Source of the DNA: Gemmatimonadota bacterium
Lineage (GTDB): Bacteria > Gemmatimonadota > Gemmatimonadetes > Longimicrobiales > Gaopeijiaceae
Assembly: GCA_009841165.1 (NCBI GenBank)
Contig: VXMI01000108.1
Span: forward strand, 1-45,600
Direction: 5' to 3'
DNA: 45,600 bases
The position numbers and the translations under genes are program-made. Positions 11,468 to 45,199 of this stretch are shown piece after piece. The notes under the pieces were generated by a model. That model searched no databases. It was not told the DNA's origin and saw nothing but the letters and a program-made list of their open reading frames with translations. The number at the start of each line of letters is the position of its first letter. Positions within the stretch are counted from its first letter, which is position 1.

Positions 11468-11482
11468 GCCGGTAGGACGGGA

Positions 11483-11580: not shown

Positions 11581-11632
11581 CGCTGCAAGGTTGGACGTGG
11601 AGATCGATAGCGGCGGCAGGCTGCAACCAATA

Positions 11633-25365: not shown

Positions 25366-25750
25366 CGGTGACGGCTTCGTCTGGTTGGGCGTCAACCTCG
25401 GGGGCGTGCGGTACGACGACTGGCCGGTCGCGCGACTTATCGAGCGGGAGATCTCCCGTCCGCTCCTCCTGACCCGCAATCGCGGAAGGGTCGCAAGACC
25501 CGATGAGTCACCGTGCAGTGGAAGCGTGACGCGTGGCAGTATTCCGCCCGACCACCAATCAGGGAGGCGAGTCTCGGCCCCACGCCGAACGCGCTGGACC
25601 GCCTCGATAGTCAGGGCTGGGCGGATGCACTCCGAGGCGTGAGGGAATGCCTGGACCGCCGGAAGCAACGTCGTGGCCGCAAGAAGGTCTCGGTCACTGT
25701 GCTCCCTTCGAGACCGCATCCTCGGGAACGACAGGTTGAGCGCCATCTTA
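25366..25750 (+). repeat. Dispersed repeat family A, fullest copy
   Basis: Left arm 25366-25487 (also at 18323), core hairpin GGGTCGCAAGACCC with tail 25488-25550 (also at 11404, 18447, 30302), and right arm 25551-25745 (also at 30366). The right arm keeps a plus-strand frame with LGPTPNALDRL and QGWADALRG in both copies, so the element may derive from a protein-coding gene. Confidence 0.72.
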
Positions 25751-25802
25751 TCCCAGTCCCGGAGGCTGGACTTTGCTGCGGTCGTGGTCGCGATCGGCAG
25801 GA

Positions 25803-25895
25803 GAGGTTGGAGAAGAGGGCGACGCGCACCTCGCTGCCGGCATCTCGTGTAAGGGACCAGCGGGGCTGGGTAGTCCGGCACGAAAGGATGGCGAA
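25803..25895 (+). repeat. Dispersed repeat family B, copy 4
   Basis: GAGAAGAGGGCGACG, CTCGCTGCC, TCTCGTGTAAGGGACCAG and GGCACGAAAGGATGG. The hairpin arms have diverged (CACGAA instead of CACGAG). It lies between repeat A and the GIY-YIG relic. Confidence 0.65.
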
Positions 25896-25924
25896 CATGG
25901 CTCGCGCGGCTCCGATGAGCGAGA

Positions 25925-25995
25925 GTGGCGGCGGTTCCTCGGGGGTGTATGAGGTAACACCTACGTACACGCGCGGCTCTCCGGGCCGATAGCTA
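25925..25995 (-). pseudogene. Remnant of a GIY-YIG gene
   Basis: Minus-strand YRPGEPRVYVGVTSYTPEEP matches the intact protein at 21036 (YEPGKPCVYVGITSRTPEER). Sequence beyond both ends is unrelated or degraded. With repeat B next to it, this is a decayed second copy of the 20,890-21,359 cassette. Confidence 0.65.
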
Positions 25996-26062
25996 GCTAG
26001 CTGGCCTTGACGCGGAGACGTGGATTTTCCAATGTACCGGAACGTTTCTTCGAGAAACGAAG

Positions 26063-26336: not shown

Positions 26337-29300
26337 CTAGCTGACAAGCCGGCGAAGCTCAGCAATAACCGCGTCCACATCGGCCACGTCCAGGCCTCCG
26401 CGCTCCTCAGTGGAGAACAGGCTCTCACCCTCCACAAATCCGTGGTTCAGATACCACTCTCGCTTCTTGTCCCATTCGGACGCGTACTGGGGATCCCCCA
26501 TCATGCCCAAGTGCTCCCAGATGATCGCGTCTCCGGCGTCATCGATAAAAGTAAAGTCGGGCCACTTCCAATCTCCGGGGGTTGGCTCAAAGCGGCATTC
26601 GTACTGTGGGTGGAGCCCTGCATCGAGGCATCGCGTGTAGATGAGCAGTTCAGACTTGGACCGGAGCAGCTCCCCGTCCGGCGCTCGGTGAACAAGATGC
26701 CTCGCGTACGGTCGATCCTCTCCCTCACGAACTGCTAACCTGAAGAGGTTGGTGTTCCTCTTGCTGGTCACCGAGGCAGTCGGCTTCGACAGATCTATTA
26801 GATCGCCTACACCGTCTCCCTGGACCATCAGCACTAGCTGTCGCCTTGACCGCGTCAGAGCTGTGTAGACCAGCTCTCGATAGACCATCGGGTGCCTTGG
26901 GAGGACGACTATCACCACGCCGAATTCCGACCCCTGGGCCTTATGCACGGTGAGCGCATACGCCAATTCGACGACCGTTCGGCGTGACTCGCCGTCACCG
27001 AAGTGCCGCCCATGAAAGTTGTAGGTGTGTTTGGCTGGTCGACCGGCGAAAAGCAGGTTGCGCCAATTCCGCCTGACCGTCCGCACTAGGGCTACCTCGC
27101 CATTCGCCAGGTATCCCGAGATTTTCTCCTGACGCTCACTGTCCCAGCCCTCCCGCTCACCGTTTTCGAGGAGGATGACCTTGTCATGCTTGATGATCTC
27201 CTGCGGTCCCGCGGCTGAGTTGGACCGGCGCGCTTGTTCGAGCTTCCTCAACCGCCAGGTCGACTGAATCCACTTGTTCAGGTCATCACAGCCCCAAACG
27301 TCTCGCCTGACTGGCGATAACACCTGCCACTGTTCGGCACCGGCTGGGTCGTTCGGCACCCAGCCCCTCTTGTACGGCTCCATCAGGAAGGACCGATTAA
27401 AGGCTTCGAGGTCGTCCTGATCTGCGATCTGCAGGTGGTCCCGAAGAGCCCCCGCAATCCCTTCCTGAAGGCTGCGGGCGTCGGACCAAAAGCGGATGTC
27501 GAGGTCCGTCAGCTGAGCCTTTCGCTCAACCATGTCGACGAATATCGACTCGGCATCGGGGCTCAGTTCATCGCCCGTGAACCACCTTGCCAACCGCAAC
27601 GTGTCCGACTGCTGGCCTTGCACGGCGCGGACTTCATGTTTGAGCCTAGCCAGTGCACCCCGCCGGATTTCACGGTCATCCAGATCCTCGTCCTCGCTCA
27701 CATCTGCCGGATCGAGGTGAGCTACCAGGTCCGCGAAGGGTCTTCCGGCTCCAATTGGAGGTAGCTGGGCCGGGTCGCCAACGAGAATCAGACGCTTCAC
27801 TCCTGCACCAAACGTCCCTATGACTGCCGCGAGAGTGTCCTCCGTGAGCATCGAGGCTTCGTCAACAACGACCGCCTCATGGCCATCGTAACAAGGCCCT
27901 CCGATGATGGGCTCCTGTCGGCTTCCGTCATACCGCCCTTGGGAATGAAGGAACTTCGCCACGGTCATGACGTCGGTCCCCTCAGCGACTCGCGACTCAA
28001 GCCGAACCCGGGCCTTTCCGGTTGGAGCCAAGAAGAGGACACGGCCCTGTTGGGAAGTGCCACGGGATAGCGCACCCAAAACAGTGGTCTTTCCGGTGCC
28101 CGCGCGGCCGACGAGCACACTGGCCTTCCGAGTAGTAAGTCTCTCTAGGGCGTCGGCTTGCTCATTCAGAGCGGCAGATGTTCTCGGATCATTCGGATCG
28201 AAGCGGTCACCCTGGGCAAGCGTGTCTTTCACCGTCTCAACCAAGATGTCATTCCACTGCTCTCCGAGGCTCGGGAGTTTCTTGTTTGTGCGAGCCCGCA
28301 GCTTTCGCTGAAGCCTATCGGCCACGTCTCGTCGCTCAGTCAGCTGCAGCCACTGCGGATCTCCATCAGTCGCCACGACCCGCTCCGAAAGGAAGTCGAC
28401 TTCGGCGCGGGTCCACCCATCGGGCACAACAACCGGATCAGCCACCGGGATCTTGGCAACCCTATCGCGGGCTTCCGGCACTCCGAGAAGGGTGTCTCCC
28501 TGGGTTTCCGCCCTTCGGAGTGTCGCTACCAAAGCTGCTCGAAGACGCCGTCTGTCGGCCGGGGAGAGGACGCTGACCTGTCTACCGGAGTTCAGCGCCC
28601 CAAGGTCGACGGTCGCAAAGGACACTGGCCGCGAGTCTCGGCTCCCCCGATCGAGCTCAGCGACGACATAGGGATTGTCGATGATCTCGCGATCCGACAC
28701 ACCATTCCCTGCGGTCTTGGATCTGAGTGACTCTTCCCACCACCGCCGCGCCTGCTCTACAGTAATGGCAAGGCGGGACAGACACCTCGCCAACTCCATG
28801 CGCTCGGGCTGTCCCTTGTAATAGACCCACTGCGAGGCGAAGGCAGCGATGTCCGCCTGAAAGCGATCGTGGGGCGGAGGGGTGACTCCGTCAAGCACTT
28901 GGGACACTGCTGCCCACGGGTCGGCGGCGAACTGCGGATCGCGAGAGGCCGCAAGTTGCACGAGGCTCACTCCCATACGCAGACCCATAGCTTCCAGGAC
29001 AGCCCCGACGCCCGGATTCGGGCCTCTCAAGCGCCAAGTGGCGGACAGGCGCTCGTTCAGCCACGTTTCGGCTGCTGCCCAAGATCCTCTTGCGATCCCG
29101 TCTTCGCGGAGATAGTGGGCAACCTTGATCGCCCTCGTGAGCACGCCGATCGTCGCGTCGGGCGTGATGTGTTCCGTCCGGTAGGAGAACTCGGCTATTC
29201 TGTCTTGATCGGGTTCGATAACGAGGCGCTTAGCGAGGTCGGCTCGCCTCGCGTCTTCGTCCTCGTCTCCGGTCGGTGTCAGGTAGTCACTGAATGGAAC

Positions 29301-30011
29301 AAGGAGCCCCCCCTCACCGCCCGCACGCAGGCTGTGAGCGATCTCGCGTTCCCAGATCGGGTGAGCGCTCACTGAGCCTTGAGTCGAATCGTAGAAAGCA
29401 ACTTGCCCGATCCGCTCTATCGAACCGACTCCCACGACGAGGCGAGAGATGTCGTCCCCAAGGGGATGGGCGCCCTTGGTATAGAAGAGGGCCAGGGAGG
29501 TGTCCTTCTCCACGGGCTCGTAGAAGGCATCCAGAATCGCCGCCTGTAAAGCGGGGTTGAACACCCACGCAGTCTTGAAGCCCTGAGGGGGGTCCTCTTC
29601 CGGCGGGAGCATCCTGAGCACGCGAGGAGCCACCCAGCTCTCTCGGTTCTCTTGCCTGAGCCAGCGGAACGGAACCCCCAGAGCGGTATATCGGGGCACG
29701 CGGCGAATGGTCTTCTTCAGGTGGCCGTGGGTTTCCGCGACCCTCTCTATCCCCGTGTATGGATGCTGGTGCTCCACGTACCAATCCTCAGGTGAGAGAA
29801 AGCCGCCGGACTCTTTCGCGCAGGGTGGGAGGAAACTGGCGAAGGGCTTGCCGCGGACGCGCAGCTCACGTGAGACGCTCTTCCGCTGAAGGATGTTCTT
29901 GTAGTCAACGCAGTGGCAGTTCGCTGCCGGATCACGACACACGGTTCCGTTCCACTGGGAGTCGTGCCACGGTACACGGATGCTCAGATTCGTTGTCACC
30001 TGCTCCCCCAT
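26337..30011 (-). CDS. SF1 RecD-like helicase with C-terminal PD-(D/E)XK nuclease
   Basis: 1224 residues from the ATG at 30011. N-terminal domain: IRVPWHDSQWNGTVC with cysteines at 25, 32, 34 and 64, a possible metal or Fe-S site. Helicase core: Walker A GRAGTGKTT (Lys at about 641), Walker B VVVDEASM, motif III LVGDPAQLPPIGAG, and the RecD-type end ALTVHKAQGSEF and YTALTRSRRQLVL. C-terminal nuclease: KSELLIYTRCL, then WPDFTF and IIWEHLG (the D...E of PD-(D/E)XK). This plan occurs as stand-alone genes in defence islands; phage DNA degradation is the likely role. It is divergent from the small-gene/RT cluster. The helicase and nuclease calls are firm; naming a specific system is not. Confidence 0.82.
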   Translation of the reverse strand: MGEQVTTNLSIRVPWHDSQWNGTVCRDPAANCHCVDYKNILQRKSVSRELRVRGKPFASFLPPCAKESGGFLSPEDWYVEHQHPYTGIERVAETHGHLKKTIRRVPRYTALGVPFRWLRQENRESWVAPRVLRMLPPEEDPPQGFKTAWVFNPALQAAILDAFYEPVEKDTSLALFYTKGAHPLGDDISRLVVGVGSIERIGQVAFYDSTQGSVSAHPIWEREIAHSLRAGGEGGLLVPFSDYLTPTGDEDEDARRADLAKRLVIEPDQDRIAEFSYRTEHITPDATIGVLTRAIKVAHYLREDGIARGSWAAAETWLNERLSATWRLRGPNPGVGAVLEAMGLRMGVSLVQLAASRDPQFAADPWAAVSQVLDGVTPPPHDRFQADIAAFASQWVYYKGQPERMELARCLSRLAITVEQARRWWEESLRSKTAGNGVSDREIIDNPYVVAELDRGSRDSRPVSFATVDLGALNSGRQVSVLSPADRRRLRAALVATLRRAETQGDTLLGVPEARDRVAKIPVADPVVVPDGWTRAEVDFLSERVVATDGDPQWLQLTERRDVADRLQRKLRARTNKKLPSLGEQWNDILVETVKDTLAQGDRFDPNDPRTSAALNEQADALERLTTRKASVLVGRAGTGKTTVLGALSRGTSQQGRVLFLAPTGKARVRLESRVAEGTDVMTVAKFLHSQGRYDGSRQEPIIGGPCYDGHEAVVVDEASMLTEDTLAAVIGTFGAGVKRLILVGDPAQLPPIGAGRPFADLVAHLDPADVSEDEDLDDREIRRGALARLKHEVRAVQGQQSDTLRLARWFTGDELSPDAESIFVDMVERKAQLTDLDIRFWSDARSLQEGIAGALRDHLQIADQDDLEAFNRSFLMEPYKRGWVPNDPAGAEQWQVLSPVRRDVWGCDDLNKWIQSTWRLRKLEQARRSNSAAGPQEIIKHDKVILLENGEREGWDSERQEKISGYLANGEVALVRTVRRNWRNLLFAGRPAKHTYNFHGRHFGDGESRRTVVELAYALTVHKAQGSEFGVVIVVLPRHPMVYRELVYTALTRSRRQLVLMVQGDGVGDLIDLSKPTASVTSKRNTNLFRLAVREGEDRPYARHLVHRAPDGELLRSKSELLIYTRCLDAGLHPQYECRFEPTPGDWKWPDFTFIDDAGDAIIWEHLGMMGDPQYASEWDKKREWYLNHGFVEGESLFSTEERGGLDVADVDAVIAELRRLVS

Positions 30012-30301
30012 GTTTCTGACTGATTGCCCACACCTGATCCTAGCCCATCGGCGCGAGGACGCCGCATTCACGGCGCCCGCTCTCGACACCTCGTGCTCAT
30101 GCACCTGCCCGTGCCACTGAAGCCATGGCCGCGCTTCCGACATCTTTGGGGCCTGGGCTCTTACACTCTTCTGCCATCATAGAGTGAGCGATGAGCACGG
30201 TCTCACGAACTAGCAGCAAATAGAATAACAGATCGAGTGTCCGGGCGGTTATCCGCATCCTAACGCAGCTGGAGCCGTATCGGTGGCCCAGCATCCACGC
30301 A

Positions 30302-30560
30302 GGGTCGCAGGACCCAGCAAGACCACCGTGCAGTGTACGCGTGACGCGTGGCAGTATTCCGCCCGACCGCCTATCCGGGAGGCGAATCTCGGCCCCACGC
30401 CGAACTCGCTGGATCGCCTCGGTGGTCAGGGCTGGGCGGATGCCCTGCGAGGCGCGGGGGAATGCCTGGACCCCCGGAAGCAACATCGCGGCCGCAGAAA
30501 GGTCCCGGTCACTCTGCTCCCTTCGAAACGGCATCCTTGGAAACGACAGGTTGAGATGTA
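30302..30560 (+). repeat. Dispersed repeat family A, copy 4 with right arm
   Basis: Core GGGTCGCAGGACCC keeps the stem with one loop change (GCAG). The right arm to about 30555 is clearly homologous to 25551-25745. The left arm is missing. It fills most of the 816-base gap (30012-30827) between the helicase and the next genes; no gene is visible in the remainder. Confidence 0.75.
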
Positions 30561-30827: not shown

Positions 30828-31031
30828 ATGGCCCGAAAACCCCGCGACACTTACAAGTATGTTCTGAAGAGGGGCAGGAAACGGATTCGTTCCGGCATCA
30901 CCAATGACCTAGAGCGCAGAGAACAAGAGCACCGACGCGACCACGGCTCGGACGTGCGTATTCTCCAGGTAGGAAGACGGACCACTCGAGATGCCGCCCG
31001 CGACTGGGAAAGCGACCAGAGTGACAGCTGA
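30828..31031 (+). CDS. Small GIY-YIG-like protein
   Basis: 67 residues: TYKYVLKRGRKRIRSGITND, then LERREQEHRRDHG, the 'Y.yvL..g....GiTndleRRe.eH' pattern of minimal GIY-YIG-fold proteins. It is short and lacks the C-terminal glutamate region of active nucleases, so it may bind rather than cut. Excellent ribosome site (GGAGGAG four bases before the ATG). Its stop overlaps the next ATG (TGATG), forming a small operon upstream of the reverse transcriptase. Confidence 0.6.
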   Translation: MARKPRDTYKYVLKRGRKRIRSGITNDLERREQEHRRDHGSDVRILQVGRRTTRDAARDWESDQSDS

Positions 31032-31225
31032 TGATTGACGACCGGTATACTAGCGGGTTCCAGAAGATGCGCGAAGAGGCACGTCAGAAGCGCGCAGAAC
31101 AACGAGACTTGGCTCGGGGTGCTGATCTCTCAGAAGTTGGTCCGGTGATGCTCTGCCAGATCGCTGAGTTATTGGAAATCATCGAAGGCCATCTCCGATC
31201 AATCTCACGGAGTGTTCAACGGTGA
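31031..31225 (+). CDS. Small hypothetical protein, helical
   Basis: 64 residues, highly charged at the N terminus (KMREEARQKRAEQRDLARG), then a helical end (MLCQIAELLEIIEGHLRSIS) that could form a coiled coil. No membrane segment, so it does not match the membrane partner known from type 1 DRT systems. It is coupled to the GIY-YIG-like gene by a one-base overlap. Function unknown. Confidence 0.55.
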   Translation: MIDDRYTSGFQKMREEARQKRAEQRDLARGADLSEVGPVMLCQIAELLEIIEGHLRSISRSVQR

Positions 31226-31517
31226 CGCCAGCAAATGGCGATAGAAGCTCATCCTAGGATACCAGACCTAGGTTGATCAGCGATCCCGCTCCCACAGGAC
31301 GTACCGAGGGGTGCTGGCAGCTCGCCCATTGGATGGCGAGGATGGGCCTGCTATCGGCGTCCGAGTATCCGACCGAGGCGCGTGGCCGGGATCACGTCGA
31401 CCCGGTGGACTTTGGACCTGATCCGTGACGACTCCTGAGCCACACTCGCTCGCCAGAATAGTCGATGGCTCAGCCTCGGTGACAGGCCAGCCCGTCAAGG
31501 TGCTGGGAACCTAACGC
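31226..31517 (+). other. Structured intergenic region before the reverse transcriptase
   Basis: A 292-base gap with several good stems: CCTAGG repeated 8 bases apart (about 31256-31275), CTCGCC/GGCGAG (31321-31340), CCGGG/CCCGG (31386-31405) and TGAGCCA/TGGCTCA (31436-31472). The first could terminate the small-gene operon. The others could belong to a leader or a noncoding RNA used by the RT. No convincing promoter or gene was seen. Confidence 0.35.
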
Positions 31518-34500
31518 GTGGTTCCAGACCAGCTCGAACCCCGGCTAGATCTGCTCCGCGAGGAGTACGTCCTCGTTCAGGCCTGGAAGAAGACCGCGTC
31601 GCACATCCGCTACCACAACTGGTTTTCCGACACGCTTGCCCTCGACCGTGTGGCCGTGAATCTACGTGAGTTTCTGGCCGAACTAGGTGATCGTCTGCGG
31701 TCGTTGGAGAGTTGGCAAAACGATCCAATACGCATCGTTCCGGCACCCAAGAGCCAGCGTTGGATGATTCGGAAAGGCGCGTGGGAGCCTGCCAACGGAA
31801 CAAGTGCGGCACGACTCCGGCCGCTCGCCCACGTCAGCTTGGCCGACCAGGTCATAGCGACAGCGCTTATGCTATGTCTTGCCGACCGCGTTGAGACCTT
31901 GCAGGGAGATTCGCGGCACCCGGTAGCCGATCGGGCGTCGCGAAGGAGGGTGATTTCCTACGGCAACCGCCTATTCTGCGACAACATCGGTGGCGAACTG
32001 AGGCACAGGTGGGGATCTGCCAAGCTCTACCGCGCCTACTACCAAGACTACCGTACATTCCTCTCGCGACCGGAAATCGCGGCCGAGTCGATCCGCGCAG
32101 TGGATGGACAACGGTTCTACGTGGTCCATGCGGACCTTCGGCAATTCTACGACCGCGTGCGCCCGGACCGGCTTACCGAGGCAATCGAACGGATCCGCCG
32201 CGATGGCGATGATCCGGCGTTTTTCTCTCTAGCCGCTTCAGTGCTCGATTGGAGATGGGATCCCCGCGACGAACGAAACGTCCGGATCTACGCAGACCAA
32301 GCGGAGCTGGAAGACTTCACGCGTGTGGCGCTCCCCCAGGGTCTCGTCGCCTCTGGTTTCTTCGCCAACGTCGTGCTGCTATCGTTCGACGAGGCGATGC
32401 GAGTTGCGATCGGGACAGAGATCGCCCCCGGTGTCCTGCTGGCGGACGCGTGCCGATACGTCGACGACCTCCGGATCCTTGTTGCGGTCGCCCCAAGCGC
32501 AGATCGCTCGGCAAGTGAACTCGGAAAGACCGTCTCGGAGTGGTTGGGTCTGCTACTGGAAGACAATTCCAACGGCCTGACACTGTCCCCCAAGAAGACA
32601 CAAGTCGCGACACTCGGAGGCGACGAGCGACCACTGGTCCGGCAAAGCGCGAAGATGAGCCGCATCCAGTCGGCAATGTCAGGAGGGTTCGATGCACTCG
32701 CGGGGGAGGAAATCCTCGAAGCCATCCAAGGCTTGATGCGGGCTCAGGAAGCTCTCAGCGTTGGGGACGCCAGTGGGTGGCGGCTCTCACCGGTGCCGGA
32801 CGTGCGGGACGAGACGGTCGCCCGATTCAGCGCTGCCCGATATCGAATCACGTACCGTTCGATTCGACCACTGCTCTACGACGACGACCAACCGGACGAG
32901 TTGGAATCCGGAAGAGGCGTTATCTCGCCCGGCGGGGGTACACGCGTCGCGCGTACCCGGAGCGAGTTGGACGAGGATGCGAGGGCGTTTGCACTCGGCC
33001 TGATCCAACGGTGGATCCATGACCCATCGAACGTGCGGCTCCTCCGAATCGGCCTCGACCTCTGGCCCGATGTTGAGCTGTTGAGGGAAGTCCTGTCACT
33101 GCTTCGCCCTTTCACAGAAAAGGGTGGCCGCCGAAAGGCGCCGAGGCGCGTCGCGTGGTATTGCCTAGCCGAAGTGTTGCGTGCAGGAGCCACAGAGACT
33201 GGCTTAGTCGCGGGTGCCGAATCGCTCCCGGCGGGCATAGACCTTGAATCCTATAGGAAGGAGCTCGCCTGGGAGGCCGCTCGCCTGGTGACCTTGCCGG
33301 GACCGACGATTCCCTGGTACCTGCGACAGCAGGCACTACTATTCCTTGCGGCCTTCGATCCTGCCGGGGCCCCTGTCTCGCGCACGGGAACCGTGCCGGA
33401 GACCCGGCACTACCGAGAGTTGATCCGATTCCTGCGCGGTGAAGGAGACCGGCTGAAGAAGCTCCGAAGTTCGGATTTCGCCACCCTCGCGGTGCTCTCA
33501 AGACGTGCGTTCGTGGATCAAGCGCAGGCAGTAGGATTGACGCATCCGGGCCTTACCCCATGGCGGAAGAGGCAGATCGCCTACAGGGACCCGTCGTTTC
33601 TTCTCGAGCTCATCGAAGCTGAGACGGGAGGGGCCCGCTTTGCCGACCTTCCAGCACGCGTCCGCGAGGACCTCTGCCTAGCGTCCGAGAGCTCTGACGG
33701 CAGCCCTATCACGCTGGCTAAGACGGTGCTGAGCACGCACCCGAGCGGTTCCCTCCGCAACGAACTCTCTCTTCTCCGCTTCGCGAGGGCCTTCCTCGAG
33801 CAGTGGGAGCAACAGGACTCGCCACCCGTAGTGATTACGCCAAGACAGGTGACGCTGGACATCGCCGAGGCTCACGGGGTCGCTGACGCGGTGGACCTGC
33901 GCATCTTGGGAAGTCGGACCGATCCATCCGGCTCGCTGTACGAGCCAGCGCCGTGGTGTGACGCTGGCCAGCGCTGGCGCGTCCAACTCGGTTCCTTGTT
34001 GCGTTTCATCTTGTCGGGGCAGCCTGACTTCACGCGTCCCGTTCGTGGTACGAATTGGAAGGAGAACGAGTCATGCTATCGCCCTGCCGAGAGCCACTGG
34101 TACCAGCGGCTATACGGCCTGTATAGCGGGCAACCAGCGTTCGGAGACGACTGGCTTCCGATCACCGATTGGGCAGAGGGGTTTCTTCTGGGTCTCCTGC
34201 GGTGGCCGGGGTGCCGTGCCCCAGACGGGTTCAGCTGGATCGAGCAAGGCATTGAGCAAGCGAAGACGCATATTGGCCAGAGGATCGCTGATCTCAAGCA
34301 ACGCCGTGGTCGCGCTACACGCACACTGATCCTCCCACTGATCGCTAAGCGACCGACCGCGACGGCCACCGAGAGGCCTCTACGGGGCTGCGTGGTCCAG
34401 ACGGTGATCCCTGAAGCCAGCGACTTCGACCGCAGAGACTTGGCGCTCAAAGGACGGGCCATTCGGCGCAGACACCGCAATCACTTGTCAGCGGCGCTTG

Positions 34501-35270
34501 CGGCCGTGGAGCGCATGCTCGCCCTCAGAGAGACACACAAGGGTAGTAACGGGCGGCTCGATTGGCTGATTCTGCCCGAACTTGCTGTCCACCCAGACGA
34601 TGTCCGTACGCATCTGGTCCCTTTCGCACGAGCTCACAAGGCGCTGATCTTGGCCGGCCTAACCTATGACGAGATTCTGGTCGGACAACCGCTCGTCAAC
34701 TCGGCTCTTTGGGTCATTCCGGAATGGTCGGACGCCTACGGGCTGCAGATCAAGACTCTCAGGCAGGGGAAGGAGAATCTCGCCCCAACTGAGCGATCGC
34801 TCAATCTTCCTGGAGCGCCCGCTCTTCGGGGGTTCCGGCCGTGCCAGTGGCTGATAGGCTATCCCTGGGCGAGTGGTGCTTCGCCCGTTTGGCTCACAGC
34901 ATCGGTGTGCTACGACGCGACGGATCTCGGCTTGGCTGCGGATCTCAGGCATCTTTCGGATGTGTGGGCCGTCCCGGCACTGAACAAGGACGTGAAAACG
35001 TTCGACCAAATGGCGTTGGCGCTACACTACCACATGTTCCAGCTCGTGGTGGTGGCCAACAAGGGGGAGTACGGCGGGAGCAACGCATACTGGCCGCGGA
35101 GTAAACCTCACGTCAGACAGGTCTTCCATACTTACGGGCAGCCACAGGCGTCGATCGCATTCTTCGAAATCGACGACATCGGCGCCTTCCTAGAGCGCCA
35201 CGATGTGTCGTCGGCCCGCGCACGCGACTGGAAGCATCCTCCTGCAGGTCTGATCATGGCATCACAGTAA
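31518..35270 (+). CDS. Defence-associated reverse transcriptase with C-terminal nitrilase domain (class 1, UG1-like)
   Basis: 1250 residues. The reverse transcriptase has motif A VVHADLRQFYD (Asp206), motif B LPQGLVASGFFAN, and motif C YVDD (314-317), so the catalytic aspartates are intact. A long helical middle (about 400-950) follows, as in 'unknown group' RTs. The C terminus is a carbon-nitrogen hydrolase: Glu1021 in WLILPELAV, a lysine near 1079-1085 (LQIKTLRQGKE), and Cys1131 in SVCYDATD, the Glu-Lys-Cys triad. RT-nitrilase fusions of this length are the hallmark of UG1/type 1 DRT anti-phage systems. The start is GTG; no strong ribosome site. The known membrane partner is not apparent. 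Confidence 0.85.
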   Translation: MVPDQLEPRLDLLREEYVLVQAWKKTASHIRYHNWFSDTLALDRVAVNLREFLAELGDRLRSLESWQNDPIRIVPAPKSQRWMIRKGAWEPANGTSAARLRPLAHVSLADQVIATALMLCLADRVETLQGDSRHPVADRASRRRVISYGNRLFCDNIGGELRHRWGSAKLYRAYYQDYRTFLSRPEIAAESIRAVDGQRFYVVHADLRQFYDRVRPDRLTEAIERIRRDGDDPAFFSLAASVLDWRWDPRDERNVRIYADQAELEDFTRVALPQGLVASGFFANVVLLSFDEAMRVAIGTEIAPGVLLADACRYVDDLRILVAVAPSADRSASELGKTVSEWLGLLLEDNSNGLTLSPKKTQVATLGGDERPLVRQSAKMSRIQSAMSGGFDALAGEEILEAIQGLMRAQEALSVGDASGWRLSPVPDVRDETVARFSAARYRITYRSIRPLLYDDDQPDELESGRGVISPGGGTRVARTRSELDEDARAFALGLIQRWIHDPSNVRLLRIGLDLWPDVELLREVLSLLRPFTEKGGRRKAPRRVAWYCLAEVLRAGATETGLVAGAESLPAGIDLESYRKELAWEAARLVTLPGPTIPWYLRQQALLFLAAFDPAGAPVSRTGTVPETRHYRELIRFLRGEGDRLKKLRSSDFATLAVLSRRAFVDQAQAVGLTHPGLTPWRKRQIAYRDPSFLLELIEAETGGARFADLPARVREDLCLASESSDGSPITLAKTVLSTHPSGSLRNELSLLRFARAFLEQWEQQDSPPVVITPRQVTLDIAEAHGVADAVDLRILGSRTDPSGSLYEPAPWCDAGQRWRVQLGSLLRFILSGQPDFTRPVRGTNWKENESCYRPAESHWYQRLYGLYSGQPAFGDDWLPITDWAEGFLLGLLRWPGCRAPDGFSWIEQGIEQAKTHIGQRIADLKQRRGRATRTLILPLIAKRPTATATERPLRGCVVQTVIPEASDFDRRDLALKGRAIRRRHRNHLSAALAAVERMLALRETHKGSNGRLDWLILPELAVHPDDVRTHLVPFARAHKALILAGLTYDEILVGQPLVNSALWVIPEWSDAYGLQIKTLRQGKENLAPTERSLNLPGAPALRGFRPCQWLIGYPWASGASPVWLTASVCYDATDLGLAADLRHLSDVWAVPALNKDVKTFDQMALALHYHMFQLVVVANKGEYGGSNAYWPRSKPHVRQVFHTYGQPQASIAFFEIDDIGAFLERHDVSSARARDWKHPPAGLIMASQ

Positions 35271-35430
35271 TGTCGCACCGCGTGGCTAGGACTAGTATTG
35301 GAACAAAACGCTGCCACAGCGGATGGGCTGCTGATTCCGGCCCATGCCCGCGAGAAGCTCAGCCGGAAGGCGGCCTGATTTTCGAGCTGTCCACTTGTCC
35401 AGTAGACCGGGACCGCTACAGACTGAATTC

Positions 35431-38400
35431 ATGCGAACGACAACGATAGCGCCAGAGCTCGCGAAGGCAGGCGAGTGCTACGCACGCGATGTCAGCGCGT
35501 TGATCACGACCGGATCGACGACAGAGGCCAGCTATTATCCCGCTGTCCAAGCGCTAGTTGCTGCGGCTCTCAGGGTCGAAGACCTACCGTTTGACGTGCG
35601 GACCAACACAAGCGAACAGAGGCCCGGTGGTGGAGTCAATCTTCCAGATATCGCACTCTACGATACTGGCGGCCTGTTCCTCACCGTGTGCGGTGAGGTC
35701 AAGCTCCCCGACCGGAAACTGAACACTCTCGCTGCGTCGACCGAGGGCAACAACCAGATCGGACGCTACTTGGCCGCTACGCGAGCTGCCTTGCTTTGCA
35801 ACGTGCGGGGTTTCGCGCTCGTGACGGTAAAGCCCGACTGGAATGGGAGCGGACCAGTGCCACCTGAGGCACGACGTGTCGAGCAGATCGTGGATCTGTG
35901 GCCCTCGCTACCAGCGCTGAAAGAGAAAACACCAATCGACCCACGGGCGCTCACGGCTTTCGCGGAGTTGGTCGAGGCAGCTGTTACGCGCTATGCTCCC
36001 ATCGCCGAGCCTGAATCCCTCGCCCGCATCCTGGCAAGGCAGGCAAAGCGGGCGAAGGCTGACCTACCAGCCAGATTCACGCGTGCCGTGCAGGGTCTCC
36101 TTGATGACTTCGCTACTGCCTTGGGAGTGACGTTTGAAGGCCCAGAGGGTGAGGAGTTCCTTCGCTCCTCTCTAATCCAGACGGCCTTCTACGGCCTCTT
36201 CGCTGGTTGGGCCCTGTGGTGGCGGGGTGATCGAGCGCGGGCGTTTCGTTGGGAAGACCTAGCAGAGTACTTGAAGATTCCTTTTTTGGGCGGCCTGTTC
36301 CACGAATTCAGACACCCATCCCGCATCAAGGAGTTGCGGCTCGCAAAGCACCTGGACCTCGCAACAGAGACCCTCGCGCGTGTTGACCCCGAGAGATTCT
36401 TCAAGCGGTTCCAACCCCCGACGCTTGAGGAGGACACGGAAACAACGACGACGGCAATCATGTACTTCTACGAACCTTTCCTTGAAGCGTTCGATCCGGA
36501 CCTCCGGAAGGAGTTGGGCGCCTGGTACACGCCGAATCACGTTGTTCGTTACCAAGTCGCGAAGATTGATCACCTGCTGCGAAATGAGCTCGACTGTAGC
36601 AGAGGCTTCGCCGACGAACGCGTTGTCGTTCTCGATCCGGCGTGCGGCACGGGTGCATACTTGGTCGAGGTGCTCCGCCACACAGCTGGTCAGCTTGTGA
36701 ACGAAGGAGCGCAGGCCACGCTTGGTGCGCAATTGCTCGATGCAATCTCCCGACGCTTCATCGGCTTCGAGATCCTTACCGCGCCCTTTGTGGTGGCGCA
36801 GTTACAGCTTTACCTCCTGCTCACGGAGGCCGGCGCGGAGCCGGATGCGACCCACCGGCCTGCGATCTTCTTGACAAATGCCCTCACGGGTTGGCACGGT
36901 CCAGATCAGCGGGAACTCAACTTCCCGGAGCTTCAAGATGAGCACGATGCCGCCCGCGACGTCAAGCGTAGCGCAAGAATCATCGTTGTGTTAGGAAACC
37001 CACCCTACAACCGCTTCGCCGGGGTGCCACTGGCTGAGGAAGCGGAGCTTGTTGACCACTACAAGGGTATCAAGAGGGACATGGACGGCAAGCAAGTGGG
37101 CCGATCAGCTCTCTTCACGCGCTGGGGCATTCGCAAGCACCTGCTAGACGAGTTGTACGTGCGCTTTCTTAGGCTTGCCGAGATTCGTATAGGTGAAGAG
37201 GCGCAGTTTGGCGTTGTATCCTACATCTCGAATTCATCATTCCTGACTGGCAGGTCCCATCCTATCATGCGGGAATCATTGCTCAGCAGTTTCAGTACAA
37301 TCTGGATCGACAACCTCAATGGTGACAAGTACGCGACCGGCAAGATGATCCCGGCAGGGCTACCTGGTGAAGGTACAGTGGATCAGAGCATATTCACCAC
37401 GCAGCATGATCCCCGCGGCATTCAGGTCGGAACCTGCATCACAACCTATCTAAAGCGCAATGCAGATAGTGAAGAGTCCGGCGCAACGGCAGCTGTGGAA
37501 TACAGGGACTTCTGGGGCCGGGCTGACGACAAGCGCGAGGCTCTCGTTGCGTCGCTGGCCCTGCCGTCTTGGCCAAGGGAGAAGAGGAACACAGCCGTCC
37601 GCACACCGGCTGGGCCACGTGAATACGAGAACTTTATCCCGACAGCTGCGACACACTGGCGCTTGATACCCACGAAGGGCAGCGGCTTCGAGGAATGGCC
37701 AGGACTTGATGACCTCTTTCCTGTTTCCTTTCAAGGAGTTAACCCCAATCGTGGCTTAGCGGGTAGCGTGATCGATACGGATCGCGTGGCGCTTGAAGAG
37801 AGAATGCGTTACTACCTGTCGGCTGCTAGTTTCGAGGAAGTGAAGGAGCGTTATCCCACTCTGTGTACTGAACGCGCAGGGTATGACCCCCAAATGGCGC
37901 GTGGCGCAATCGTCGCAGAAGGGGGCTTTGATGGCGACAAGTTGTCGCCCTATTGCGTGTTCCCGTTCGATCTCCGCTGGATCTACTATGAGCGCGAAGC
38001 GAAGCTCCTGAACAGGAGTAGGCCCGACCTTGGCGATCATCTGCAGGATAACGACTTCCTGATTAGCGCTCCGAGGGCCCGGCGCGTGTCAGAGAGTCGC
38101 CCACTCGTCTTGTCCTGCCTCTTCGATCTCCACCTGCACGATTGGGGCTCGGTTGGGTTTCCCGCCGAGGTTAATGCCGCTGAGGGACCCGGATTCTTCG
38201 CTTTTGGTCCGACAGAACGCAAGCGGAAAGCGAATCTTGCCACGGATGTCTGGAATGCTCTTCGCGACGCCTGGAGTATGCAAGGGGATCTGACGGGTGG
38301 CGATGCGACCGGTTTGTGTCGAGCCCTCTTCCACTACTGTCTGGCAATCAGCCATGCGCCGACTTATGAGCACGAGCACAAGGATTCGCTCGCGCAGGAC

Positions 38401-38970
38401 TGGCCACACATCCCGATCTGTAAGGATCCAAGGGGATTCCAAGAGATTGCTACCCTGGGGGACCGACTTGCGCACCTACTCAATCCGCAGAAAGACGCGG
38501 GCACCGTGATCCAGGATCGGCTCGGCTCGGAGCTCAAGACCGTGGCGGTTGTTCGAAGAGTCGGCGGCGGTAGCGTGAAGGAATCTGATCTCCTTGTCGA
38601 ATACGCGTACTTCGGTAGCGCGACGGGCAGGTGGCAGAAGAGGGTGCTTGAGCAAACAGAGTTGCGACATCCAGAATGGGATTCTCTCACAGGTGATCTT
38701 CATCTCAACGACATGGTCTTCTTGAGCCATGTCCCGCATGCTGTCTGGCGCTACGAAATGGGCGGCTATCCGGTTCTCAAGAAGTGGCTTGGCTACCGCG
38801 AGGCCCGGCGTCGCACCGGAGCACCACTGACACTTGCTGAACTCACGCATCTGCGTAATGTCATCCATCGCATCGCAGCGCTCCTTACCCTTCGGCCGGC
38901 GCTGGACGAGGCTTACGCGAAGGCCTGCGCAGATCCCTGGCGGATCGATGAACTGACAAGCATGCCATGA
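35431..38970 (+). CDS. Type ISP/IIG-like restriction-modification enzyme
   Basis: 1179 residues from the ATG at 35431. N-terminal PD-(D/E)XK nuclease: PD at 72-73 and GEVK (Glu89, Lys91). Gamma-class N6-adenine methyltransferase: motif I DPACGTGAY (402-410) and motif IV NPPY (523-526). The C-terminal 500 residues resemble the type ISP specificity domain (IYYEREAKLLNRSRPDL, LVLSCLFDLHLHDWG). The helicase/translocase domain of true ISP enzymes is absent, so this is closer to a type IIG or PglX-like layout. It would modify one adenine in its site and cut nearby. The frame is open 29 codons upstream. No separate specificity subunit. Confidence 0.82.
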   Translation: MRTTTIAPELAKAGECYARDVSALITTGSTTEASYYPAVQALVAAALRVEDLPFDVRTNTSEQRPGGGVNLPDIALYDTGGLFLTVCGEVKLPDRKLNTLAASTEGNNQIGRYLAATRAALLCNVRGFALVTVKPDWNGSGPVPPEARRVEQIVDLWPSLPALKEKTPIDPRALTAFAELVEAAVTRYAPIAEPESLARILARQAKRAKADLPARFTRAVQGLLDDFATALGVTFEGPEGEEFLRSSLIQTAFYGLFAGWALWWRGDRARAFRWEDLAEYLKIPFLGGLFHEFRHPSRIKELRLAKHLDLATETLARVDPERFFKRFQPPTLEEDTETTTTAIMYFYEPFLEAFDPDLRKELGAWYTPNHVVRYQVAKIDHLLRNELDCSRGFADERVVVLDPACGTGAYLVEVLRHTAGQLVNEGAQATLGAQLLDAISRRFIGFEILTAPFVVAQLQLYLLLTEAGAEPDATHRPAIFLTNALTGWHGPDQRELNFPELQDEHDAARDVKRSARIIVVLGNPPYNRFAGVPLAEEAELVDHYKGIKRDMDGKQVGRSALFTRWGIRKHLLDELYVRFLRLAEIRIGEEAQFGVVSYISNSSFLTGRSHPIMRESLLSSFSTIWIDNLNGDKYATGKMIPAGLPGEGTVDQSIFTTQHDPRGIQVGTCITTYLKRNADSEESGATAAVEYRDFWGRADDKREALVASLALPSWPREKRNTAVRTPAGPREYENFIPTAATHWRLIPTKGSGFEEWPGLDDLFPVSFQGVNPNRGLAGSVIDTDRVALEERMRYYLSAASFEEVKERYPTLCTERAGYDPQMARGAIVAEGGFDGDKLSPYCVFPFDLRWIYYEREAKLLNRSRPDLGDHLQDNDFLISAPRARRVSESRPLVLSCLFDLHLHDWGSVGFPAEVNAAEGPGFFAFGPTERKRKANLATDVWNALRDAWSMQGDLTGGDATGLCRALFHYCLAISHAPTYEHEHKDSLAQDWPHIPICKDPRGFQEIATLGDRLAHLLNPQKDAGTVIQDRLGSELKTVAVVRRVGGGSVKESDLLVEYAYFGSATGRWQKRVLEQTELRHPEWDSLTGDLHLNDMVFLSHVPHAVWRYEMGGYPVLKKWLGYREARRRTGAPLTLAELTHLRNVIHRIAALLTLRPALDEAYAKACADPWRIDELTSMP

Positions 38971-39415: not shown

Positions 39416-40372
39416 TTGGGCGGTTCTCGTCCGGCTACAGTCGGCCCCCAACGAAGTCCGGTATCCCTTGATGCCTGGCTTCCTGTGCTCCCGAGACTCT
39501 TCTCATCTTCTCATCTTCAGCTTCTAGCTTGGGCTCGTAGCTCTGACTTGTTTCCCTACGCGCAGGCCCTCGTCAACCTGAAGCGGTCACTACCTCCCGA
39601 AGCTACAATAGCGGACCTGCTTGATGAGTCTTTCCATATTCTGCGATGGCACTATCCAGTAGAGTACGTCTTCAAGGCGTGCCTTCTGAAACGGCTACTT
39701 TTCGGGCGACATAGCCCTCGCACAACCTCATGCTACTTCGAGTTGCCGGTTGGCGAGGCGCGTGCAGACATGGTGCTTGTGAACGGAAGAGCCGATGTCT
39801 ATGAAGTCAAGTCTCGTTTCGACAGTGATGCACGACTGGAGGCGCAACTCAAGGAATACTATCGGGTGTTCACCAGGGTGACCATCGTGACGGAACACGA
39901 AGAAGTCGCAAGATACCTGGACCGTCTGCCAGCCCATGTGGGGGTCGCAACGCTGACGCGCCGGTTCTCGGTCAGCACAAAGCGCGCTGCTTCGTGTTGG
40001 TATGACGGCCTGGACCATTTCGGGCTATTCCAGATGCTTCACCAAGCGGAACGCCACCAGCTTGCCGAAGATCTCCGATTGTCCGTATCGCGGATGCAGC
40101 CGATCTCGCGATACCGGCAGGTGTTTACACGGTTCGCCTTGTCATGCTCACCTTGGAAAGCCCACGAACGGGTAGTTGCCGCGCTCCGCACTCGACAGCG
40201 TACCGACGATCTGGCGAGGCTGTGCGAGACCCTTCCTCAATCGCTACACGTCGCAGCTTTCTCGTACCGCTTGCGAAAAGCGGACTGGACAGCTCTCTTA
40301 GAGGTTCTTGCGACAACACTCGCAGAGCACCCGAAAACAGGAGTTCCTCGTGTACTTCCCCTACCTACGTGA
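39416..40372 (+). CDS. sce7726 family protein, PD-(D/E)XK-like
   Basis: Up to 318 residues. The centre carries EARADMVLVNGRADVYEVKS, where Asp and the EVK triplet match the PD-(D/E)XK signature that names the sce7726 family. The TTG at 39416 has AGGA 7 bases upstream; an internal GTG at 39485 is an alternative, as homologues seem to start nearer to VLPRLFSSSH. It overlaps the sce7725 gene by 23 bases, a strong sign of a functional pair. The family is seen next to defence genes, but its mechanism has not been established to my knowledge. Confidence 0.72.
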   Translation: MGGSRPATVGPQRSPVSLDAWLPVLPRLFSSSHLQLLAWARSSDLFPYAQALVNLKRSLPPEATIADLLDESFHILRWHYPVEYVFKACLLKRLLFGRHSPRTTSCYFELPVGEARADMVLVNGRADVYEVKSRFDSDARLEAQLKEYYRVFTRVTIVTEHEEVARYLDRLPAHVGVATLTRRFSVSTKRAASCWYDGLDHFGLFQMLHQAERHQLAEDLRLSVSRMQPISRYRQVFTRFALSCSPWKAHERVVAALRTRQRTDDLARLCETLPQSLHVAAFSYRLRKADWTALLEVLATTLAEHPKTGVPRVLPLPT

Positions 40373-41288
40373 GAAGCAAGAAGAGTTGCTCTCAGTTAGA
40401 GATGGCGGTTTTCTCAGCGATCTCACCATTCCAATATTTGAGCCAATCACCCTGTCTGATACCAACCAGACGCGCATGGAGCACGCGATTCAGAACGGGC
40501 GCCGATTCGCGATCATCGTGAACAGCGCGCATGGCAAACCGCAGCCCCCTAGGCCGAATGAGGCGGCTCATGTCGTTCACGCCCTTCCGCCCGACCGAGT
40601 GTTACCTGCGCTTGAGATTCGACCCGGAACCCGCATAGCCCAGATCGCGTGGTTCGTTGGAGAGTTCCTAGATCGCAGGTGTCTTGTGGTACATCGAAAC
40701 CACCAATACACCTCCACTGAGCTGATCCAGCAGCTTGAACCACTAGGCGAGTCCGTGATTCATGTGACGATTGACGGCGGTGTGCCGGAAGAGGTGGTAC
40801 GACAACTCCCGGCGCAAGCGAGGGTGTTGCTGAGAGGTGGCTTCAAGCACCAGCCGACCAACGCTGATTACCAAGAGCAATCTCACTTCGATGACCTGCT
40901 GTACACCTTCCAAAACCGGGGATTTGACGGCTTCGGTGATTTCACGACCGTCCGAGATCAATTCCAGGCGGGAGGGGGTGCGGCTCACACAATCGCCCTC
41001 CATCTCACCGAGGTCGCTGGAGGCAGGATCCTCGCCAACCACTTCATCTCCCATCCACCTCACATTCGCGGAAACAATCGCCGGAAATACCTGGAGGCTG
41101 TTGAACGACTTGTCGAATATGTCTCTGAGCGACCCGGGTTCGATACGGTCGGTGTCGCAGGATTCCGCGATTCTTGGGAAACACGTAGTAATCCCGGCTT
41201 TGGGAAGCCAAAGCGCTGGAGCATCCAGCACCACTTCGAGATCATCGAAAGAGAACTGTCTCGCCGCGGCGAGACGCCGATCATGTAG
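40350..41288 (+). CDS. sce7725 family protein
   Basis: 312 residues from a GTG with AGGAG six bases upstream; the protein then begins VYFPYLREKQEELLSVRD, the normal opening of the family ('mYFPYLRgkq.EL..lr'). A central glycine-rich FKHQPTNADY and a late PPHIRGNNRRKYLEAVERLV are also family-typical. Always found with sce7726; probable toxin/effector or adapter for the nuclease-like partner. No catalytic motif is recognisable. Confidence 0.75.
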   Translation: MYFPYLREKQEELLSVRDGGFLSDLTIPIFEPITLSDTNQTRMEHAIQNGRRFAIIVNSAHGKPQPPRPNEAAHVVHALPPDRVLPALEIRPGTRIAQIAWFVGEFLDRRCLVVHRNHQYTSTELIQQLEPLGESVIHVTIDGGVPEEVVRQLPAQARVLLRGGFKHQPTNADYQEQSHFDDLLYTFQNRGFDGFGDFTTVRDQFQAGGGAAHTIALHLTEVAGGRILANHFISHPPHIRGNNRRKYLEAVERLVEYVSERPGFDTVGVAGFRDSWETRSNPGFGKPKRWSIQHHFEIIERELSRRGETPIM

Positions 41289-41754: not shown

Positions 41755-43503
41755 TCACGTCCCCACCCTGAAGCCCCACTCCACCCAGGTCTCTAAGTGC
41801 TTGTCGTAGTGCCCCTTCGGTAAACCGACAACGAGCAGGTGACGAGCACGCGTCATGGCTACATACGCCAGCCGTCGGTCTTCCGTGTTGTCGCCATTCC
41901 GTACGTCCGCCACCACGGAGTTCCAGAACTTGGCGCTGCCGACGACCAGCACCGCGTCGATACTCTCTCCTTTCACCTGGTGAATCGTGTCCTGCCGTAC
42001 TTTCGGCGACTCACTGACCGACTCGAAGAGCGGCAGAGCCTTCTGAACAGTGGTGAGTCCGGTTGTCTTGATGTGACGTCCGAGCTGGATATCACATTGC
42101 AAGCCAATTCCTTCGATCAAGTTCGCCAACTGCTTTCGCATGGCAGGAATCCACCTGTTACCACGCTGAGACAACGGTAGTAGTCGGTCGGGGCATTTGA
42201 CGAACTTCCAAATTGCCAATGATACAGCCATGCGTGCGGGTGACGGCCGGTCGGAATCTACACGCTCCCACAGAGGATCGTCGCCTTTGAGCTCGCGCAA
42301 AATACTCTCGACGATCTGAGATGCCTTTCGGTAATCGAGTCGGGAATCACGCAGGAACGCGGCCGTTGCCAAACGCTTTGTTTTCCCCTTGAGCCCGGTG
42401 TAGTTCACCTTGCCGCGCAGTGATTCCAGTTGCCCGTGCCCTCGGCAGACGACCGCAGCAGAGTCGATGGTCACTCTGGCTTGATCCGCGATGCGTTGAA
42501 ACGCCGCCAAGCCATCACAGAATGTGCTCGACGTCTCTCTTACCACAAACGCGCGGTGCCACTCCGATGGTCCATCACTAGATCCGGTGAAGAGTGCATT
42601 GCCGCCCACGTTACGGACAGCCGCAGCAATCTGGTTGTTGCAGCGGAACGACTGGCTCAAGGGCATTTCTGGAATTGACCACTTCTTCTTCAGATCGGGC
42701 AACGAAGTCGCATCTGCCATACTAAACTCGTAGATGCACTGGTCGGGGTCACCAACGAGCGTGATCCGTGCGCCCTTCTTGCGCAGGAAGTTCAAAAGGA
42801 ACAGCAACCAGGCGTTTGAGTCTTGCGCTTCATCAACGATGATCTCGGGGAAGCGCCTAGCAAGGAGCTCTGCGATATGAGGTCTGTTGAACAGGAGCTC
42901 GCAGGCCCAGAACACCCGCTGGGCATGTGTATAGAAACCCAGAGACAGCAGCTCGTAGACAGCATCACGGGGAGCAACGAGAGGCTGATTCCCGAAAGTG
43001 GGTGACGCCTTGAAGCGGAGCTTCGTGCCATCCGGATAGGGTATGACTTCCCACGCTGGAACGGGAATGCCCCTCCCGCGTCTCCACACTTTCAGCTTGT
43101 TGTTGTTCCAGTCGCCGGGGCGTGGACCCGGAAACAGCCTAGGCCGCTTGTCTGCGCCAGCGAGCAAATGGCCAAATGGTGTGAGAATGTACCGCTCAAC
43201 GAATGAGTCAAACGTACCGACGTAGTTCGGATCAGCGAGGAGATCTCTTCGCCCCAAGTTGATCGTGGCGGTCTTGAATTCGCGGATGGCAGCATTCGTG
43301 AACGACAGGAGGGCCAGCCCACCGACCGGATAAGGCCAGTTGCCCGCTCTCCAGACGAAGCGTCGACATGATGTCCAAGTCTTTCCGCTTCCTGGAGCTG
43401 CGCGCAAGAGAAACTCCAGTTCCTCGGCAAAGATGGCCTCCTGCTGCTGGCTTGTCGGGCGCTCCGCAAGTATCGCCTCTCGGAGTCGATCAGCTGTGGG
43501 CAT
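41755..43503 (-). CDS. gajB: Gabija protein GajB, UvrD-like helicase
   Basis: 582 residues from the ATG at 43503. SF1 helicase motifs: Walker A AAPGSGKTW (35-43), Walker B VDEAQD (223-228), motif III LVGDPDQCIYEF, and motif VI VAMTRARHLLVV near the C terminus. Length is somewhat greater than the roughly 500 residues of the reference GajB. The start overlaps the 3' end of gajA by 14 bases. In Gabija, GajB associates with a GajA tetramer and senses or processes DNA ends made during phage infection; the complex blocks phage replication. Confidence 0.87.
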   Translation of the reverse strand: MPTADRLREAILAERPTSQQQEAIFAEELEFLLRAAPGSGKTWTSCRRFVWRAGNWPYPVGGLALLSFTNAAIREFKTATINLGRRDLLADPNYVGTFDSFVERYILTPFGHLLAGADKRPRLFPGPRPGDWNNNKLKVWRRGRGIPVPAWEVIPYPDGTKLRFKASPTFGNQPLVAPRDAVYELLSLGFYTHAQRVFWACELLFNRPHIAELLARRFPEIIVDEAQDSNAWLLFLLNFLRKKGARITLVGDPDQCIYEFSMADATSLPDLKKKWSIPEMPLSQSFRCNNQIAAAVRNVGGNALFTGSSDGPSEWHRAFVVRETSSTFCDGLAAFQRIADQARVTIDSAAVVCRGHGQLESLRGKVNYTGLKGKTKRLATAAFLRDSRLDYRKASQIVESILRELKGDDPLWERVDSDRPSPARMAVSLAIWKFVKCPDRLLPLSQRGNRWIPAMRKQLANLIEGIGLQCDIQLGRHIKTTGLTTVQKALPLFESVSESPKVRQDTIHQVKGESIDAVLVVGSAKFWNSVVADVRNGDNTEDRRLAYVAMTRARHLLVVGLPKGHYDKHLETWVEWGFRVGT

Positions 43504-45199
43504 CGTCGGGCGCCTCACTGAGAACGCCCAGATACGCAAGGGCGTTGCGGATGTACCCGGGTACCGCGTCGACCTCAAGACTACTTTCAGCCAAGATCCC
43601 GGCGAGTTCCTGCGCAAACCGGCCTTTCGAAACCGACTTTTCAAGGAACCCCTCCAGGAACCTTGTGGCCTTATCCTCTACATTCGCGACCGTCGCGAGT
43701 TCGATTTCCAGCATTGCTCCAATGCGCGGATGCAGCTCTTTCAGCGCAGACACCATGTGCGGAAGCAGGACTTCTGACCGAGCAAGTTCGTGTTCGAAAG
43801 TTCTTTCCGACATCTCGACGCTCAGATTCGGAATGCCCTCCGCTTGCTCTTTCAATCCTGATGCTGTCGCCGACACCTCGCCGCCGACCTCCTTCGCGTC
43901 ACCGTCTGTAAGAATCACTACCGGCACACCCAGCCGCTCCACTCCGAACAATGGCATGAACGCGTTGAAGTTGATCCCATCCGCATTGAGAACAGTCACA
44001 GACGACTCCCTCAGGTTACCACCTGCGATCTTGGCCAGCACAGGGAGCAGGAGCGCCTCCGCGATCCCTTCCACCATCAAGATGCGTCGGGCAAAGAACA
44101 GTTCGCCGCGGGTCGCGTCGAGATACCGTTCAAGCTTCTTCTTGATAGTATCCTTCATCGCTATGGAACAGACCGAGACTGTGCTGACGTTGCCATCGGC
44201 CTCATGAACGGATACGATCGAGTCAATCGAGGCCTGACTCGCTAGAATGGGAGAGTGGCTGCTCGCGATGACCTGCACCTCACTGTTCTCGCGATCGCTG
44301 GCCACGTCAGCCAAATGCCTGAGAAGTAGCATCTGTAACTGTGGGTGCAGGTGCGCCTCGGGTTCCTCGATCAAGATTGAGCGGAACGAGAACTGTGGAC
44401 TCCGCCGGAGCGTGCCCAATGTCGCCGCTGTGAAGATCAAGTTGTTGTAGCCTAGTCCATTGAGGGCAAACGGTAGTCCCTCGATCTCAGGTTGCAGTCC
44501 AGCGATGATGCGACGGAAAGCTGGGTCGGTGAAGATCAGCTCGGTCTGCTGGGTCAGTTCACGACCTGCAATAGCCTCCATCTGCGAATTGATGTCGCCC
44601 CTTGCGTCCTTGACTGGCGCAAGAGCTCGAATCTGCTCATTTGCGTCGCTCGCAATGGTCTCAAAGGCTGTGCGCTGATTCTCGCTAGTCAGGCGGTCGA
44701 TAAGGCGGGACACCTGGGAATGCTGGCCTGGTCGCAAGCCGCGCTGCGGATCACGGAGCGGCTGCAGGTAGATCGTTGAGAATTGGTCATAGTGGTTCGA
44801 CGGAAGTCGTCCGCCTTCCGTCTCGCCACCCCACATTCTCACGTTGCAACGATTGGTCGTCTCGTTGAATTCAACGCGGGCATTGACCCGCATCTCAAAA
44901 TCACCATCATCGATGTCGACAAGGCACTCTTGAAAATGCACTTCGTCTTCATCCTCGAGCCCCGTGAATGTGCAAGATACTTCGATCGGGGCATAGCCGG
45001 TTTCGGCACAGAAGTCGTCCTCAGTCAGCCGGAGAGCACCAAAATCACGACTCGGAAACAACATAAGACGCAGTGCATCGATGATCGTCGTCTTACCCGA
45101 GTTGTTCTCCCCGACCAACACCGTCAGACCGCGCGGAAAGCTGATTGTGAGTGCGTCGATTTTTCGGAAGTTGCGGATCTTTAGTTCGCGGAGCCACAT
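43490..45199 (-). CDS. gajA: Gabija protein GajA, OLD-family ATPase-nuclease
   Basis: 569 residues, close to the reference length of about 578. ABC-type ATPase: Walker A GENNSGKTT (30-38), signature-like LNGLGYNN (246-253), Walker B ILIEEPEAHLHP (275-286), and His-switch SHS (314-316). A Toprim nuclease domain follows: Glu377 in LMVEGIAEA and the DxD pair Asp432/Asp434 in LTDGDAK. All catalytic acids are present. In known systems GajA is a nucleotide-inhibited, site-specific nickase activated when phage replication depletes NTPs. It is first in a two-gene operon with gajB. Confidence 0.9.
   Translation of the reverse strand: MWLRELKIRNFRKIDALTISFPRGLTVLVGENNSGKTTIIDALRLMLFPSRDFGALRLTEDDFCAETGYAPIEVSCTFTGLEDEDEVHFQECLVDIDDGDFEMRVNARVEFNETTNRCNVRMWGGETEGGRLPSNHYDQFSTIYLQPLRDPQRGLRPGQHSQVSRLIDRLTSENQRTAFETIASDANEQIRALAPVKDARGDINSQMEAIAGRELTQQTELIFTDPAFRRIIAGLQPEIEGLPFALNGLGYNNLIFTAATLGTLRRSPQFSFRSILIEEPEAHLHPQLQMLLLRHLADVASDRENSEVQVIASSHSPILASQASIDSIVSVHEADGNVSTVSVCSIAMKDTIKKKLERYLDATRGELFFARRILMVEGIAEALLLPVLAKIAGGNLRESSVTVLNADGINFNAFMPLFGVERLGVPVVILTDGDAKEVGGEVSATASGLKEQAEGIPNLSVEMSERTFEHELARSEVLLPHMVSALKELHPRIGAMLEIELATVANVEDKATRFLEGFLEKSVSKGRFAQELAGILAESSLEVDAVPGYIRNALAYLGVLSEAPDDAHS

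Follow-up and report, generated by a model that had tools for sequence, protein, structure and literature searches.

The window analysed here, a 45,600-nucleotide stretch of contig C222 in a genome assembly of 4.27 Mb and 239 contigs, carries at 31518-35270 an apparently intact member of the DRT1 family of defence reverse transcriptases (RTs), of an already known kind, and the locus very probably functions as a stand-alone DRT1 antiphage system. This assignment is drawn from what is seen here, namely the architecture of the protein, its family membership, the conservation of its functional residues and the lack of a conserved membrane partner or RNA. In several related loci DRT1 is directly followed by a gene for a RecD-like helicase, a lead worth following that would, if substantiated, matter more than the window protein itself.

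Family assignment and architecture

The gene is a single open reading frame of 1250 codons, opened by a GTG and free of internal stops, and its start at 31518 aligns with the ATG or GTG starts of close homologues. The features of the encoded protein, with residue counts taken from an alignment of 52 proteins, each 1100 residues or longer and the window protein among them, are as follows:

31518..35270, + strand: DRT1 (Drt1a/UG1) RT-nitrilase fusion (PADLOC Drt1a PDLC03745, 1236 bits, residues 5-1245; PDB 9YFD, E 1.7e-120)
31809..32627, + strand: RT domain, about residues 98-370 (RVT_1 PF00078, 34 bits, above cut-off; AlphaFold model)
32133..32135, + strand: RT catalytic Asp D206 (52/52 homologues)
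32457..32468, + strand: RT catalytic motif YVDD, residues 314-317 (52/52; equivalent to D324/D325 of the studied DRT1)
32679..32681, + strand: S388, predicted protein-priming serine (Ser in 52/52; equivalent to S402 of the studied DRT1)
34380..35192, + strand: nitrilase (C-N hydrolase) domain (AlphaFold2 pLDDT 89.9; Foldseek matches to amidases, E 1.9e-11; profile match to 9YFD 933-1227, E 9.3e-107)
34578..34580, + strand: nitrilase E1021 (52/52)
34770..34772, + strand: nitrilase K1085 (52/52)
34908..34910, + strand: nitrilase nucleophile C1131 (50/52; equivalent to C1116 of the studied DRT1)
35232..35246, + strand: C-terminal lid K1239-H-P-P-A1243 (K in 47/52, A in 47/52; equivalent to K1219...A1223)

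The PADLOC models separate the candidate families clearly (1236 bits for Drt1a, versus 82 for UG5-nitrilase and 55 for UG21), and 9YFD, deposited as 'Defense-associated reverse transcriptase 1', is the sole related structure in the PDB. In a tree of RT domains, the window protein groups with the DRT1 proteins, including the 9YFD-like homologue of locus L068, in one clade (96/97) from which UG5 enzymes and retrons are separate; as the outgroups were a small set and some sat on long branches, we restrict the claim from this tree to DRT1 membership. The original prediction of an intact, UG1-like RT-nitrilase fusion is thereby borne out, the uninterrupted frame containing YVDD, the upstream catalytic Asp and the nitrilase residues together. 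Its placement in class 1 of the UG/Abi RTs has to be corrected, since UG1/DRT1 is assigned to class 3 (PMC13275509) and enzymes of class 1 (AbiK, AbiA and AbiP2 type) have no fused nitrilase or phosphohydrolase domain, so that the nitrilase domain present here excludes them. UG5-nitrilase RTs likewise join an RT to a nitrilase-fold domain but form a separate RT clade, and that identity is excluded both by the tree and by the PADLOC scores.

The closest system studied experimentally, the DRT1 of Neville et al. 2026 (9YFD; PMC13275509), has the same end-to-end arrangement of RT, helical and nitrilase regions in a single gene, and the same YVDD, priming serine, nitrilase and C-terminal lid residues, at about 28-31% identity to the window protein. 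The comparison set comprised 59 loci from genome contigs, gathered in one genome scan, two loci from viral contigs and a number of plasmid loci, and the alignments underlying the structure predictions were built without two plasmid-derived rows. The model of the first 480 residues (pLDDT 84) matches RTs that include DRT2, AbiA, UG15, DRT4 and DRT9. At the other end of the protein, a Pfam scan did not reach CN_hydrolase and a fold search was therefore needed; the model of the C-terminal 316 residues (mean pLDDT given above) returned amidases, formamidases and nitrilases from the PDB, upholding the predicted nitrilase fold. The Glu-Lys-Cys triad proposed for it is likewise confirmed (E1021, K1085 and C1131), and a further active-site residue, E1092, is conserved in 51 of the 52 proteins.

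Two of the residue equivalences depend on how the sequences are brought into register. A stretch of L068, TNRINEIQREIGTSSIPERNG, is nearly identical to that of 9YFD, and the 52-sequence alignment places S388 in the column of S402, while a pairwise phmmer alignment with 9YFD sets S402 opposite the residue neighbouring S388; the assignment of S388 as the counterpart of S402 is thus that of the 52-sequence alignment and differs from that of phmmer alone. The register of the lid residues K1239 and A1243 was counted back from the final residue of L068/9YFD. In the studied DRT1, D324/D325 are needed, S402 is the mapped priming site and is described as special to DRT1, and mutation of K1219 or A1223 in the C-terminal swapped lid abolished defence; more generally, mutants show that the counterparts of YVDD, S388, C1131 and K1239/A1243 are all needed for defence (PMC13275509). 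Every published functional DRT1 residue that we checked is present in the window protein and conserved, and the same residues are held across about 30% identity and many phyla.

Predicted mechanism

DNA synthesis, filament formation, trigger and outcome are carried over from the studied homologue at roughly 30% identity. By analogy, the RT domain would add short A-rich single-stranded DNA, in a template-free manner, onto S388 of its own protein, and the resulting DNA adducts would promote the formation of tetramers and then of filaments. Within such filaments the C-terminal tail (K1239...A1243) is predicted to cap the nitrilase active site of a neighbouring protomer (E1021/K1085/E1092/C1131) and thereby to keep the nitrilase dormant. 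Phage replication, for which a Dda-like helicase is needed in the studied case, would then free the nitrilase, which may halt or kill the cell in an abortive infection. As the window protein is only some 28-31% identical to the studied DRT1, its substrate, its trigger and the details of its filament may differ.

Membrane partner and upstream region

A hydrophobicity scan revealed no membrane protein within 1.5 kb of the window DRT1, and a search of the host genome with the Drt1b model PDLC03821, run without a positive control, found none. The original prediction had described the RT as lacking its usual membrane partner: the absence stands, but the word 'usual' does not, as drt1b adjoins only about 18% of drt1 genes, most of which are without it, and defence by DRT1 works without Drt1b (Neville et al. 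2026, PMC13275509). Among our loci, five (L004, L058, L059, L068 and L069) have a small gene for a single-pass membrane protein immediately after DRT1, and PADLOC recognises all five as Drt1b. These include Vibrio loci of a marine gammaproteobacterial clade (L004, L058) as well as the 9YFD-like L068 (IMG/VR); their RTs belong to the same Drt1a family as the window protein, but the membrane gene that overlaps or follows the RT gene in this type of system is missing from the window. All five carriers fall within a 9-member sister clade in the tree, whereas Drt1b was found in none of the 43 members of the window's own clade, from which it follows that lacking the membrane partner is a trait of the whole branch. 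The window DRT1 thus supports the 2026 finding that the membrane partner is dispensable.

At one window-clade locus (L035), a 226-aa single-pass membrane protein encoded at 5512-6189 lies 142 bp downstream of DRT1; it has no Drt1b match in PADLOC and is possibly an independently gained membrane partner.

Just upstream of the window DRT1 lie two small ORFs (30828-31031 and 31031-31225) and a 292-bp gap (31226-31517), and this arrangement had been read as possibly defining a DRT1 subtype, marked by the pair of small genes and by a structured RNA ahead of the RT gene. Their position is what speaks for such a subtype. No relatives of either ORF were found beside other DRT1 loci (best E 0.04), which answers in the negative the question whether these neighbours recur with homologues, and the relatives of the first ORF, elsewhere in the same genome and in two others, all occur at places without DRT1. 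The gap folds as shuffled sequence does (z = -0.96; 33 of 200 shuffled versions fold equally well or better), has no match in Rfam and resembles other DRT1 loci only over some 25 bp before the start codon, where the bases held in common resemble a ribosome-binding site; the description of the gap as structured is therefore not sustained, and we consider the subtype extremely improbable. With Drt1b not being the usual partner and neither the small genes nor the gap being conserved, the broader suggestion of a variant defined by its missing partner fails as well. A quite different reading, that the window DRT1 is a decayed or inactive copy left behind in a defence island, draws on the existence of decayed or broken DRT1-like loci among its relatives (L061, L057 and L044), but is very unlikely given the full-length frame and the retention of all tested catalytic and structural residues.

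Short ORF tails end 3-4 bp before the DRT1 start in many loci, the window having a 29-codon ORF of this kind at 31425-31514; a common upstream gene was considered and rejected, the tails being mostly unrelated to one another. A longer upstream ORF of 263 codons at L014 has a clear match to L017 only. The decayed locus L061 retains at 1260-1894 a DRT1 remnant in which residues 1-78 are fused to 1119-1244, most of the gene having apparently been deleted internally.

Defence island and distribution

The genes around DRT1 that bear on its setting are the following:

26337..30143, - strand: PDC-S68 RecD-like helicase-nuclease (PADLOC PDC-S68, 1138 bits)
35344..38970, + strand: type ISP/IIG restriction-modification enzyme adjoining DRT1, an island neighbour and not part of DRT1 (Type_ISP_C, 3.2e-40)
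39416-41288, + strand: sce7726 and sce7725 family genes, neighbours
41755-45199, - strand: Gabija-type pair GajA/GajB

The proximity of GajA/GajB, the type ISP enzyme and PDC-S68 places the window DRT1 in a defence island. Relatives of the type ISP/IIG enzyme lie 5' of DRT1 in L010, L012 and L019, and methyltransferases of the type ISP or IIG/DISARM type adjoin DRT1 in many relatives, as is expected in defence islands. DRT1 is rare in the phylum (3 of 298 genomes) and its close relatives, at 64-77% identity, are spread over several phyla, which suggests horizontal transfer. In a second genome of the same genus (G022), DRT1 is split at about residue 801 between two contig ends (C21:142-2538 and C55:213-1550), perhaps because of a repeat or insertion element.

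A helicase gene recurrently following DRT1

Clustering of the neighbour genes of all loci singled out a recurring helicase of about 1250 residues, catalogued by PADLOC as the defence candidate PDC-S68 by itself, without DRT1. It lies directly 3' of DRT1 on the same strand in 7 of 41 loci of the window's clade, counting those that have 300 bp or more of sequence downstream of DRT1. In L010, L016 and L046 it begins 11-14 bp past the DRT1 stop codon; in L019 and L045 the two genes overlap as ATGA; and in L053 it stands directly behind DRT1. The copies of L045 and L055 are decayed and present in pieces only. On the DRT1 tree the pairing occurs at scattered positions (5 changes, against a shuffled mean of 6.7), and similarity among the helicases does not track that among the DRT1 proteins (between L016 and L019 the helicases are 85% identical and the DRT1 proteins 60%; between L016 and L010, 50% and 64%). 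Both features fit repeated joining of DRT1 and helicase; an ancestral helicase followed by losses and exchange may be an alternative history. The helicase core matches RecD (E ~1e-40) and T4 Dda (1.3e-13), and a C-terminal E...PDFT...WEH pattern, common to all six aligned copies, looks like a candidate PD-(D/E)XK nuclease.

T4 Dda is required but not sufficient to trigger the studied DRT1 (PMC13275509). Set beside the operon-like arrangements with their ATGA overlaps, the scatter of the pairing, the match of the helicase core to RecD and Dda and the rarity of PDC-S68 itself (6 of 298 genomes of the phylum), this need for Dda would accord with a two-gene variant whose helicase would detect or process the DNA adducts, replacing or acting alongside a phage helicase, with the window as a rearranged form. 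Such a reading is nevertheless unlikely: PDC-S68 is absent from most DRT1 loci and occurs mostly without DRT1, none of the copies inspected elsewhere having one nearby; the studied DRT1 works by itself; and a common location in defence islands could account for the proximity of the two genes. In the window, moreover, the helicase gene is inverted, 1.4 kb upstream of DRT1, and its product is diverged, at 34-35% identity to most of the operonic copies and 28% to that of L053, which leaves its link to the window DRT1 only putative. We hold it possible, if doubtful, that some DRT1 systems comprise two genes, with a host-encoded RecD/Dda-like helicase-nuclease (PDC-S68) as a partner that was joined repeatedly and would act on the protein-linked DNA or the trigger; the diverged, inverted window helicase may represent a rearranged form of such a pair. 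A literature search, which did not take in the principal survey of the genes around UG RTs (Mestre et al. 2022), found no report naming PDC-S68 or pairing it with DRT1. If true, a DRT1-helicase operon would make the Dda-type trigger step directly testable.

An intergenic element in the island

Between genes of the island lie four copies of an intergenic element, all in the same orientation (11404-11470, 18447-18510, 25488-25745 and 30302-30555). The element has a 66-nt core that opens with a hairpin, GGGTC-GCAA-GACCC, and occurs with two kinds of tail, tails being found at 11463-11586, 20871-21290 and 25791-26010. It has no match in Rfam and is present in 11 of 23 genomes of the same genus, often in several copies on one contig; it may mark the edge of a cassette or act as a shared regulatory element.
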